Source: Acidobacteriota bacterium (GTDB lineage: Bacteria; Acidobacteriota; Terriglobia; Bryobacterales; Bryobacteraceae). Taken from it: a DNA stretch of 32,539 bases. Position 1 is the stretch's first letter. The number at the start of each line of letters is the position of its first letter. Below the pieces are notes generated by a model. It had not been told where the DNA came from. It worked only from the letters and a program-made list of their open reading frames with translations, and ran no database searches. This document shows, piece after piece, positions 10,512 to 13,761 of this stretch. Location: the NCBI GenBank assembly GCA_016871015.1, contig VFZX01000042.1, positions 1 through 32,539 on the forward strand, in the 5' to 3' direction. The position numbers and the translations under genes are program-made.

Positions 10512-10922
10512 ATGTATATCACCCGGACAGCCGAATTCTCGGCTTCGCACGCCTGCTACCGGCCGGATTGGAGCGGGGAGCGCAACCGCGAAGTCTACGG
10601 AGAATCTTCGAACCCTCGCGGCCACGGCCACAACTACCAGTTGGAAGTGACGCTCGAGGGCGAACCCGATCCTGTCACCGGAATGGTGCTCGATCTCAAG
10701 GAGCTCAAGGAGATCATCCATAACGAAGTGATCGAGCCCTTTGATCACCGCTTCTTGAATCACGAGGTCCCGCCGTTCGACCGCGTCGTGCCGACTCCGG
10801 AGAATATCGCCCGCGAGATTTGGCGGCGGCTCTCTCCCCGCTTCAACGGGTCCGGCGGGCCGCGCCTGGCCAACATCCGCCTGTTTGAGACCGCGGACCT
10901 GTTTGTGGACTACGCGGAATGA
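10512..10922 (+). CDS. 6-pyruvoyl-tetrahydropterin synthase/QueD family protein, paralogue A (catalytic Cys replaced by Ser)
   Basis: A 136-residue T-fold protein of the PTPS/QueD family, which acts on 7,8-dihydroneopterin triphosphate. The zinc ligands are present: His13 (FSASH) and His38/His40 (GHGH). The Asp-His pair of the catalytic triad is present as Asp78-His79 (FDHRFLN). The pterin-binding Glu residues are present in PTPENIA and FETAD. The catalytic Cys, expected six residues before the first His of HGH, is Ser32 (YGESSNPRGHGH). Cys15 next to the zinc His is the only nearby thiol. The stop overlaps the start of paralogue B (ATGA), and folE follows. Alone it should be catalytically weak by the known mechanism; a role as partner of paralogue B is inferred. 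Confidence 0.88.
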   Translation: MYITRTAEFSASHACYRPDWSGERNREVYGESSNPRGHGHNYQLEVTLEGEPDPVTGMVLDLKELKEIIHNEVIEPFDHRFLNHEVPPFDRVVPTPENIAREIWRRLSPRFNGSGGPRLANIRLFETADLFVDYAE

Positions 10923-11344
10923 CCCGCGTCACACGCGAGTACCGCTTTGCCGCGTCGCACCGGCTCCACTCGGACCTCCTGCCAGCCGCCGACAATCAGC
11001 GGATCTTCGGCAAGTGCAACAATCCCTACGGGCATGGGCACGACTATGTCTTGCAGGTGTCGGTGTCCGGTCCGGTTGACCCCGATACGGGCTTGGTGTG
11101 CCGGCTGGCGGCGATTGATGCCGTGGTCGAGCAACAGGTTCTGCGCCATGTGCGTGATCAGGACCTCAATTGCTGGGATGAGTTCGCCTCGCTGGTTCCG
11201 ACCACTGAGAACCTCGCCGTAGTAGTCCGACGCCGGCTGTCCGGGGCCTGGCAGGTGGCGTTCCCCGATGGGCCCGGCCTCTGCGGTGTCCGGATTCTTG
11301 AAACCAAACGAAACACAGTGGAATGGAGATTGCCTTGTCGATAG
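10919..11344 (+). CDS. 6-pyruvoyl-tetrahydropterin synthase/QueD family protein, paralogue B (catalytic His replaced by Gln)
   Basis: A 141-residue second copy of the family. Zinc ligands His14 (FAASH) and His39/His41 are present. The catalytic Cys33 is present with the Cys-x5-His-Gly-His spacing of animal 6-pyruvoyl-tetrahydropterin synthases ([12 protein letters not shown]). Both Glu motifs (PTTENLA, LETKRNT) are kept. The triad His is missing: where family members have Asp-His, this one has Asp80-Gln81 (RDQDLN). It overlaps paralogue A by 4 nt and folE by 22 nt, so the three products are probably made together. The pathway could lead to tetrahydrobiopterin-like cofactors or to 6-carboxytetrahydropterin for deazapurines; no QueC, QueE or sepiapterin reductase gene is in view. 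Confidence 0.88.
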
Positions 11345-11892
11345 CGGCACAAATGGAGCAGGTCTTGCGTGGCTTGGGAGAGGATCCTCAGCGCGACGGC
11401 CTGCTGCGGACTCCACAGCGCGCCCAAAAGGCGCTGGAGTTCCTGACGAGCGGATATCAAGCCGATATCAGGAAAATCATCAATGGCGCGCTGTTCGAAG
11501 TCAAGCATGACGAGATGGTGATCGTTAAAGACGTCGAGTTCTACAGCCTCTGCGAGCACCACATGCTTCCGTTCTTCGGACGCATGCACGTCGCCTATTT
11601 GCCCAAGGACCGCGTGATCGGGCTCAGCAAAATCCCCCGGATTATCGACGCGTTCGCCCGCCGGCTTCAAGTTCAGGAGCGGTTGACGACGCAAGTGGCC
11701 GAAGCGATCCAGTCCGCCGTCGAGCCCCATGGCGTCGGAGTTATTTGCGAGGCGCGCCACTTCTGCATGATGATGCGGGGAGTCGAAAAACAGGGATCCT
11801 CCACGGTCACCTCGGCGATGCTCGGGGCGTTCAGGACGCAGCAGGCATCGCGCCAGGAGTTCCTGTCGCTGGTCCGGGAGACATCCCGCTGA
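11323..11892 (+). CDS. folE: GTP cyclohydrolase I
   Basis: GTP cyclohydrolase I opens the GTP imidazole ring and forms 7,8-dihydroneopterin triphosphate, the substrate of the two proteins encoded just upstream. The 189-residue protein is full length for the compact bacterial form. [10 protein letters not shown] contains zinc ligands Cys77 and His80 with catalytic His79; [11 protein letters not shown] contains zinc ligand Cys148. [23 protein letters not shown] and TSAMLGAF are family-typical. The chosen ATG lies inside the end of paralogue B (22-nt overlap), consistent with coupling in a pterin operon. A TTG at 11334 is a possible later start. Confidence 0.96.
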
Positions 11893-11908: not shown

Positions 11909-12271
11909 ATGCCCGAATCGTTTCGTGAGTTCGAAGCGGCCGATCCGTTCGGAAAAACGCTTCAAGTCAAATTCGTGTGGCTCCAGACCGCCATTTCGAT
12001 CCGTCATGCCGACGCGGTGGACGTGAAGTTCACCCTGCTCGACGGCGCCTACCGTGATGAAAAGGTGATTGCCCTGCCGCATCCGGTGCTGCGTGCGATG
12101 GCGGGCACTAGCGGACGGCCCTTGTCCGACGCCTGGGTCTCGAAGCTCGCTGCCTCGCACCTCAGGCGGATGATCGAGACCGGTGAGGACATGGAGAAGC
12201 CGCTCGTCACCATGTCCACGGCCGATATCGAAGCCGCCGATTCCAGGCTTCGCGAAGCCGCCGCGGCGTGA
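11909..12271 (+). CDS. Small protein of unknown function
   Basis: A 120-residue soluble protein that I do not recognise. It has no signal peptide or membrane segment. The first half has beta-like segments (TLQVKFVWLQTAISI, AVDVKFTLLD); the second is helical and charged (VSKLAASHLRRMIETGEDM, ADIEAADSRLREAAAA) and ends in an Ala-rich helix. GGAG lies 3 nt before the ATG and TAAAAT 8 nt before it. It follows folE by 16 nt, so it may belong to the pterin operon or have its own promoter. Third-position GC matches its neighbours, which supports it as a real gene. Confidence 0.7.
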   Translation: MPESFREFEAADPFGKTLQVKFVWLQTAISIRHADAVDVKFTLLDGAYRDEKVIALPHPVLRAMAGTSGRPLSDAWVSKLAASHLRRMIETGEDMEKPLVTMSTADIEAADSRLREAAAA

Positions 12272-12355
12272 CGGTTCCCGGAAATTCATCGAGCCGCCCA
12301 GCCGCCCGGCCGTTGGCGCTAGACTGATCACTGGAGACCGTATGGAGATTGGTTG

Positions 12356-12781
12356 TTGGGACTGCTGAACCTCTCTGTCAAGGGAGAGTATGCGCTGCTG
12401 GCGGTACTCGACCTGGCGATGAACAAATCCGGTGATCCGGTGAAGATCGCCGCCATCGCGTCGCGGCAAAACATTCCGCAAAAATTCCTTGAGCTGATTC
12501 TCGCGTCGCTCAAGCAGGGGGGATTCGTTGAGTCGCGCAGAGGCGCTGAAGGCGGGTACTTGCTGGCCCGCCCGGCGGACCGGATCCGCGTGGGAGACGT
12601 ATTGCGCCATATCGAGGGCCGCCCCGAACGAAACCATGTTCGTGGTGAGTCGGCCTTCATCCGCATCTGGCAACAGGCGGAGTCGGCCCTGGGCGACGTT
12701 CTCGACAATCACAACTTCGCCGACATCGCACGCCAGTGGAGCGAGCGCCAGAGCGCCTACGTTCCCAACTGGGACATTTGA
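12356..12781 (+). CDS. Rrf2-family transcription regulator, CymR-like (no cysteines)
   Basis: A 141-residue winged-helix regulator. LSVKGEYALLAVLDLA matches the first helix of Rrf2 proteins. IAAIASRQNIPQKFLELILASL is the helix-turn-helix with recognition helix. GFVESRRGAEGGYLLARP is the wing, and VGDVLRHIEG starts the dimer helix. There are no cysteines, so it cannot hold the Fe-S cluster of IscR/NsrR; this and its place 26 nt before cysK fit CymR, the master regulator of cysteine metabolism that uses CysK as co-regulator in Bacillus. The C-terminus is ...VPNWDI with a terminal Ile. No ATG is in frame; TTG 12356 has GGAG 8 nt upstream, TTG 12353 is the alternative. The gene symbol is withheld because the phylum is distant. 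Confidence 0.88.
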   Translation: MGLLNLSVKGEYALLAVLDLAMNKSGDPVKIAAIASRQNIPQKFLELILASLKQGGFVESRRGAEGGYLLARPADRIRVGDVLRHIEGRPERNHVRGESAFIRIWQQAESALGDVLDNHNFADIARQWSERQSAYVPNWDI

Positions 12782-12807
12782 CTTGATCGAAGAATGGGAC
12801 TAAGAAA

Positions 12808-13761
12808 GTGATCTACGACGACAATTCACTCAGTATCGGCCGCACGCCGATGGTCCGCCTGGGCCGCCTTGCCAACGGGCTGGACTGCGAGATCTTTGGC
12901 AAGATCGAGGGGCGCAATCCGGCCTACTCGGTGAAGTGCCGCATCGGCGCCTCGATGATCTGGGACGCTGAGAAGCGCGGCATTCTCAAACCGGGCAAGG
13001 AGCTCATCGAGCCGACCAGCGGAAACACCGGAATCGCGCTCGCGTTTGTCGCCGCCGCGCGCGGATATCCCATCACGCTCACCATGCCGGAGACGATGTC
13101 CATCGAGCGGCGCAAAGTTCTCAAGGCCTTTGGCGCCAAGCTCCTGCTCACCGAAGGCGCGCTCGGCATGAAGGGCGCCATTACCGCCGCCGAGCAGGCG
13201 GCCGCTGCCGAGCCCAACCGCTTCGTGCTGCTACAACAGTTCAAGAACCCCGCCAACCCGGAAATCCACGTCAAGACGACCGGGCCGGAAATCTGGGAAG
13301 ACATGGAAGGGCGCGTCGACGTGCTGGTCTCCGGAGTCGGGACCGGCGGCACTATCTCCGGCGTGTCGCGATACATCAAACACGTCAAGGGACAGAAGCT
13401 GCTCTCGGTGGGCGTTGAGCCGTCGGCCAGTCCCGTGATCACCCAGACCCTGGCCAAACAAGCGGCCAAGCCGGGGCCGCACAAGATCCAGGGCATTGGC
13501 GCCGGATTCATCCCAGACACTCTCGATCTCGCCATGGTGGACCGTGTCGAGATGGTCAGCAACGAGGAAGCGATCGACGTGGCGCGCCGCCTGTCCCGCG
13601 AGGAAGGAATCCTGTCCGGCATCTCCTGTGGGGCCGCCGCGGCCGTCGCACTGCGGATCGCGCGGGAACCGGGTATGGCTGGAAAGCGAATGGTGGTGAT
13701 CCTGCCCGATTCAGGAGAACGCTATCTCAGTTCCGTGCTCTACGAGGGGATGTTTGACTGA
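12808..13761 (+). CDS. cysK: Cysteine synthase A (O-acetylserine sulfhydrylase)
   Basis: This PLP enzyme makes L-cysteine from O-acetylserine and sulfide. The 317-residue protein follows enterobacterial CysK closely along its length: [20 protein letters not shown] with PLP-binding Lys43, [12 protein letters not shown] (substrate-binding loop), [28 protein letters not shown] (PLP phosphate loop), [11 protein letters not shown] and [11 protein letters not shown]. The start is GTG at 12808; upstream in-frame alternatives would enter the end of the regulator gene. The Rrf2/CymR-like gene ends 26 nt before, suggesting one operon and possible feedback through a CysK-regulator complex, as known in Firmicutes. 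Pyridoxal phosphate for it would come from PdxST, also encoded in this window. Confidence 0.97.

Follow-up and report, generated by a model that had tools for sequence, protein, structure and literature searches.

Tandem 6-pyruvoyl-tetrahydropterin synthase paralogues with complementary loss of catalytic residues in Acidobacteriota: a probable heteromeric enzyme

The DNA analysed (32,539 nucleotides, called the window here) contains two adjacent genes encoding paralogues of 6-pyruvoyl-tetrahydropterin synthase (PTPS), A and B, and neither product has by itself a complete Cys-Asp-His triad, which is complete only across A and B. The best explanation is that A and B probably form a heteromeric PTPS with trans active sites of one polarity. 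From the residues, their conservation and phylogeny, the operon and the existence of natural fusions, we infer the physical complex, its geometry and its reaction. No heteromeric PTPS of this kind was found described in the literature searched, a set to which most subscription journals do not belong.

Gene A (positions 10512..10922, plus strand, 136 amino acids) and gene B (10919..11344, plus strand, 141 amino acids) overlap by 4 nt, in agreement with the earlier note, the stop of A and the start of B being contained in the ATGA at 10919..10922 of the plus strand. The same spacing of −4 was present in 42 of the 68 class loci measured. Both products matched PF01242 (A, 1.1e-33 and 116.3 bits; B, 2.5e-23 and 82.8 bits; Pfam curated cut-off, 22.4) and rat PTPS (1b66) by phmmer (5.8e-31 and 5.7e-25, respectively), and rat and human PTPS were the best-scoring solved structures for both. 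The curated cut-off of TIGR00039 (6PTHBS; 125.5) was missed by A (75.9 bits) and B (59.7 bits) and passed by two of the fused homologues presented below (L198, 151.5 bits; L192, 129.2 bits), and that of the QueD model TIGR03367 (89.25) was also missed by both (67.6 and 42 bits). The folE gene follows on the plus strand (11323..11892; TIGR00063, 2.4e-78, above cut-off) and, if read from its first ATG, shares 22 nt with the 3' end of B. Its product, GTP cyclohydrolase I, makes the substrate of PTPS.

Two other features were observed downstream. Immediately after folE there is a gene for a 120-aa protein (11909-12271) having no Pfam or NCBIfam match; 15 of the 54 related loci encode a relative, 14 of them on the same strand. 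Beyond the folE operon, an Rrf2 regulator and cysK occupy positions 12353-13761. Among 51 cyanobacterial loci (from the best 80 of 522 loci of the scan described below), 13 and 14 have Rrf2- and cysK-like genes, respectively, upstream of their fused PTPS, but only 2 of 54 close relatives have such genes close to the pair, so that their proximity to PTPS genes is perhaps due to chance. These neighbour counts come from named-query searches, the clustering of neighbours in the class being noisy, with many antisense frames.

In rat PTPS, the active site combines Cys42 and Glu133 of one chain with His89 of another. Alignment to this enzyme confirmed most of the residues listed in the earlier note. 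In A, Ser32 (10605..10607, plus strand) lies at the position of the catalytic Cys42 and Asp78-His79 (10743..10748, plus strand) at that of Asp88-His89, while zinc-binding His13, His38 and His40 as well as Glu97 and Glu126 are retained. In B, Cys33 (11015..11017, plus strand) aligns with Cys42, and zinc-binding His14, His39 and His41 are kept together with Glu97 and Glu128. The loss of Asp-His in B is also real, but the residues that the earlier note had given for it (Asp80-Gln81) were one position off: in the HMMER alignment to rat PTPS, anchored on DHxxLN, the place of Asp88-His89 is occupied by Arg79-Asp80 (11153..11158, plus strand). This register is settled by the RDRNLN stretch of the two B homologues of the same genus, which read VRDRNLN and TRDRNLN instead of DHxxLN. 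In both of these genomes the Cys of A is replaced by Ala or Ser and B has Arg-Asp, and sequencing error was therefore ruled out as the cause of the losses.

The products were also compared with subfamilies PTPS-I, PTPS-I/III, PTPS-II and PTPS-III. According to PMC5041015, the motif is CxxxxxHGH in PTPS-II, CxxxHGH in PTPS-I and CExxHGH in PTPS-I/III. B fits the PTPS-II motif (CNNPYGHGH) and A does not (SSNPRGHGH). In PMC2229834, the PTPS-III of Plasmodium (motif ExxHGH) has its catalytic Cys replaced, as in A. However, its Glu is located three residues before HGH, whereas Ser32 of A is six residues before it, and the motif is absent from both paralogues, which have Pro and not Glu at that place (PRGHGH in A, PYGHGH in B).

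Taking these data into account, A (10512..10922), devoid of the canonical Cys, is proposed as the Asp-His donor and B (10919..11344), which bears the PTPS-II motif and has no Asp-His, as the half-site with zinc, Cys and Glu. To the working site, B would bring the zinc held by His14, His39 and His41, the catalytic Cys33 and, as anchor of the pterin, Glu128, while Asp78-His79 would reach this site from A across the subunit contact. The reverse polarity, with the zinc site of A facing Arg79-Asp80 of B, would be incapable of the canonical reaction. The complex would act after FolE on dihydroneopterin triphosphate, that is, as a 6-pyruvoyl-tetrahydropterin synthase. Among the closest known systems is the animal PTPS-II (rat, 1b66; human, 3i2b), with which the pair has in common the family, the CxxxxxHGH motif of B, the zinc histidines, both glutamates and folE as partner. 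For the rat enzyme, the title of Burgisser 1995, which PMC2229834 and PMC7546909 cite, speaks of an intersubunit triad, and PMC7546909 describes the animal enzyme as a hexamer of six identical monomers. Here, in contrast, the parts of the triad are divided between different paralogues, Cys on B and Asp-His on A.

The conservation of the pair was studied in the genome of the window and 60 relatives (61 genomes). The tandem pair was present in 55 of them; three of the remaining six gave no PTPS match, two had a QueD-like copy only and one had QueD and a fragment at a contig edge. None of the 61 genomes examined clearly keeps A or B alone. Of the 55 loci, that of the window included, 54 have folE next to the pair and in the same orientation (53 of the 54 related loci); the sole locus where it was not seen is L049, whose contig stops within B. 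In the 55 pairs, Asp-His of A and Cys of B are present in all cases and Cys of A in only two, Ala, Glu, Gly, Asp and Asn being found at its position in relatives. Among the 54 readable B sequences of these pairs, Asp-His is kept in 35 and altered in 19. The replacements of this dipeptide were RD, GH, ES, RG, AN, DR, RW, DY, SN, RH, HH, DM, HQ and DE. When the 71 pairs of the class were considered, Asp-His of A and Cys of B were invariant (71/71 each), and Asp-His of B was intact in 49 and altered in 22. The zinc histidines and the equivalents of Glu107 and Glu133 are nearly invariant in both A and B. The earlier note had asked whether the Ser/Cys and His/Gln differences are conserved as a pair in relatives; Asp-His of A and Cys of B are constant, and Asp-His of B is still present in those 35 of 54 pairs. 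As consequence, obligate heteromery does not follow there, since B alone could be complete.

On class trees built without the catalytic columns and without L051, whose B is masked, the minimum number of changes in Asp-His of B was 14 with the A tree and 15 with the B tree. B evolves faster than A (tree lengths of 36.4 and 16.5, B representing 0.69 of the total). Given this share, the location of 14 of 14 Asp-His losses in B has p = 0.005, and that of 17 of 17 letter changes of the Cys column in A has p = 2.6e-9, both being rough binomials that treat the events as independent. The faster evolution of B does not easily account for such one-sided losses. Asp-His of B is altered in 4 of the 19 class pairs whose A retains Cys, and an independent-pairs test of the loss of A Cys against that of B Asp-His had just 1–2 usable pairs.

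The distribution was extended to a phylum sample of 149 genomes, for which 60 regions were picked from the matches listed and 14 more were added. Among these matches, further pairs were found in families f8 (at least 15), f22 (at least 4) and f19 (at least 2), as well as single PTPS-II genes, of which all 12 listed outside f39 keep Cys and Asp-His. As a control, the 30 QueD copies read in relatives keep them too (30/30). A and B were named by order, A being the upstream or N-terminal copy, except in the two pairs of f39, which were named by residues. In f19, A and B are naturally fused into a single open frame, of 309 codons in G072 and 297 in G174. The A domain of these fusions carries Arg or His at the Cys position and Thr or Ala at that of Glu133, and in their B domain Asp-His is replaced by Gln-Gly or Ser-Gly. 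In f39 (G111 and G149) the two PTPS genes are unlinked; A has lost Cys (Ala), zinc-binding His48 (Tyr) and Glu133 (Ile) and retains Asp-His, and B retains Cys and the zinc histidines and has Asp-Arg for Asp-His. The retention of Asp-His in an A that has lost its zinc site is difficult to account for unless this A donates Asp-His. In addition, a separate PTPS subfamily was observed at 17 loci of other Acidobacteriota families (L122, L124, L127, L130-L137, L139-L141 and L144-L146), with DH(R/K/Q)(M/L) followed by a DDP or EDP stretch instead of DHxxLN.

A scan of named genomes was done with the f19 fusions as queries, and the best 80 of 522 confirmed loci, a set biased to query-like fusions, were studied. 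A and B are in one frame in 77 of these 80, the fusion loci comprising 20 from Poribacteria, 51 from Cyanobacteria and a few from Binatota, Bacillota, Acidobacteriota and others. In 19 of the 20 Poribacteria fusions of this set, Cys of A is replaced by Ala and Asp-His of B by Asp-Tyr, and in one of the 19 the first zinc His of A is also Gln. The His-to-Tyr change of B is one fixed substitution, and the Tyr might still be functional. The 51 cyanobacterial fusions of the same set (among L206-L271) are tandem-domain PTPS with a decayed first domain and a complete second one: A lacks the His (Phe or Tyr in nearly all) and B is complete. In 11 of them A lacks Cys as well, so no A-B site can be formed and only B-B sites could work.

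The triads available to each pair were tabulated for 158 pairs, the best 80 of 522 scan loci included, of which 156 were readable after dropping L051 (B masked) and L195 (B at a contig end). The combination of B Cys with A Asp-His is the only one possible in 42 pairs (41 distinct ones, because L138 and L192 are one genome). It is possible together with a complete B in 35 and with a complete A in 4, and all combinations are possible, both copies being complete, in 23. The remaining pairs have a complete B plus A Cys with B Asp-His (41) or only a complete B (11). None of the 156 readable pairs is without any complete triad combination. Loci with a full triad, which the earlier note had set against its own proposal, thus exist, but they are better read as the older state, which probably had two full triads, as in 13 of the 15 f8 pairs and 4 of 4 f22 pairs listed and in the Binatota locus. 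Complementary loss, for its part, was seen in separate lineages (f1/f3, the f19 fusion, the unlinked f39 pair and Poribacteria), and the natural A-B fusions and the co-retention of both genes bear indirectly on the proposed A-B complex. Of the heteromer of the earlier note, in which only B Cys and A Asp-His would complete the site, the core is well supported by evolution, through the two invariant elements, the repeated changes in B and these lineages; its obligate character does not follow for the close relatives that keep B Asp-His.

A careful tree was constructed with 39 chosen pairs and 11 other sequences, after an earlier, wider tree from which near-duplicates, partial rows and 17 rows of low score were excluded; QueD was the outgroup in the trees. 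In the careful tree, 38 of the 39 A rows form one clade (support 98/93) spanning five phyla (Acidobacteriota, Poribacteria, Binatota, Bacillota and Cyanobacteria), which indicates that the duplication is old. The B rows do not form one resolved clade. The f39 pair seems to be a separate case, since its A falls outside the A clade and its B groups among single-copy genes. Deep forks are uncertain, as the alignment has few columns. The pair would have its origin in an old tandem duplication of one complete enzyme, after which Asp-His of B would have decayed many times and Cys42 of A would have disappeared no later than in the ancestor of the order of the window; an f4 genome of the same class also lacks this Cys.

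A single-chain AlphaFold2 model was obtained for a homologue of the pair, the fusion L198 from Poribacteria, together with 48 fused relatives (pLDDT 95.1, pTM 0.89). Its B domain resembles human PTPS (3i2b; Z 19.2) and its A domain QueD (4ntk; Z 16.2). The whole chain aligns over both domains with urate oxidase (Z 13.3, 227 residues, 4.2 Å) and GTP cyclohydrolase IB (Z 11.6, 198 residues, 4.3 Å), at 6–7% identity and with other chemistry, the likeness being of arrangement only. Both enzymes are tandem T-fold chains, and the model suggests that A and B lie side by side in one barrel. Among solved chains, no tandem-domain PTPS was identified with the fusion profile (14 distinct sequences matched, the longest of 188 residues).

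The residues of A require further consideration. Cys15 (10554..10556, plus strand), two residues after zinc-binding His13, is present in 50 of the 52 A sequences of f1-f3. It is absent from all 68 A sequences with Cys42 and from all 158 B sequences (best 80 of 522 scan loci included); the two f3 A without it have a loop two residues shorter. Thus, in the order of the window the loss of Cys42 accompanies a new Cys beside a zinc ligand. Cys15 may have taken over the catalytic role of Cys42, may be a fourth ligand that makes the zinc of A structural (His3Cys), or may belong to a re-wired site. Because of Cys15 and the near-invariant zinc histidines and glutamates of A in f1-f3, the own site of A should not be called dead; the earlier note had touched on this Cys as a possible route to activity of A alone. 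It is conceivable, though rather improbable, that A is active by itself as a homomer, its catalytic Cys having moved from position 42 to 25 (Cys15) and working with Asp78-His79 of A, and that B is a separate or regulatory partner. This would fit the distribution of Cys15 and the retention in A of the zinc histidines, both Glu and Asp-His. However, it leaves unexplained the invariant Cys of B (71/71) and the zinc histidines and Glu kept there beside a lost Asp-His, and Cys15 is absent from the Cys42-less A of f19, f39, f4, Poribacteria and two f3 genomes. Cys15 does not remove the need of the B half-site for an Asp-His, which in the heteromer would come from A. A tentative extension of the heteromer, which we hold as possible and no more, is a complex with two different zinc sites, the canonical trans site and a re-wired Cys15 site in A, with A and B possibly sharing the T-fold barrel.

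With respect to the pathway, the order PTPS-folE-SDR was found in the 20 Poribacteria loci (20/20; best 80 of 522) and in 4 of the 15 f8 loci among the matches listed. The 54 nearer loci have no such SDR gene next to the pair. The SDR matches general SDR models only, so sepiapterin reductase is a putative label for it. In L210 (5656-6399; SDR by Pfam), as in the other 19 Poribacteria loci and the 4 f8 loci, the row of PTPS, folE and SDR is a possible complete biopterin-type operon. The folE context, the PTPS-II motif of B and the PTPS-folE-SDR order point to a biopterin-type tetrahydropterin pathway. In the genome of the window, the sepiapterin reductase model TIGR01500 gave 25 matches, none above cut-off, and it also gave matches in 13 of 14 control genomes. 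PhhA (PF00351) was absent from this genome and present in 16 of the 61.

A different product, compatible with the heteromer, was also considered: instead of 6-pyruvoyl-tetrahydropterin, the pair could make 6-hydroxymethyl-dihydropterin for folate, replacing FolB. Of 37 f1 genomes, just 3 had FolB above the curated cut-off, below which the match of G016 fell, and 31 had FolK; no FolB was found in the genome of the window. However, a simpler answer is offered by the third PTPS, a QueD with CExxHGH, the PTPS-I/III hybrid motif, in 29 of the 30 read, and the sole exception sits in a FolB-bearing genome (the one of the three such genomes whose QueD was read). In addition, f3 has FolB in 18 of 18 genomes and retains the pair in 17 of them, which makes the folate role unlikely. 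QueD belongs to the same superfamily (PTPS-I, PTPS-I/III) and is found as one copy elsewhere in the genome of the window (contig C119, 20060-20413, L089; 109.1 bits against a cut-off of 89.25; CENLHGH), differing from A and B in a shorter loop, a complete triad and a separate locus. Because of its CExxHGH motif, and as FolB was not found in this genome, it may serve both queuosine and folate. A swap is seen within one order, f1 having hybrid-type QueD and rarely FolB, and f3 having FolB and no QueD match.

That B alone is the enzyme, tolerating the loss of Asp-His with A as a structural or regulatory pseudo-subunit, has little probability. B is indeed complete in 35 of the 54 close pairs and in the 51 cyanobacterial fusions (51/51; best 80 of 522), but Asp-His of A is invariant (71/71) where that of B decays, A is never clearly lost by itself in the 61 genomes, and A of f39 keeps Asp-His despite a lost zinc ligand. 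Finally, it is very improbable that the two copies are degenerating and dispensable: both do miss catalytic residues, but their zinc histidines and Glu107/Glu133 equivalents are nearly invariant, B Cys and A Asp-His do not vary, and the operon with folE is retained.

Among other enzymes, PMC3663545 describes for the trypanosome deoxyhypusine synthase an impaired subunit (DHSc) that is activated in a heteromer with a dead paralogue (DHSp). It is another enzyme with another chemistry, and the title speaks of allosteric activation, whereas A and B are proposed to complement each other directly as catalytic halves.

PTPS is described as a homo-oligomer and its subfamilies are annotated by signature motifs of one chain, a rule that a triad split over two paralogues breaks. 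Such a split would account for Cys-less PTPS genes that look dead. The pairs studied here form a natural series (both copies complete, half lost, complementary loss, fusion and unlinked genes) of the passage from a duplicated homomer to an obligate heteromer through a shared site. If the two-site complex were true, a duplicated homomeric enzyme would have turned into a heteromer with two activities, and the re-wired Cys15 site of A would be freed from the Asp-His of its partner.
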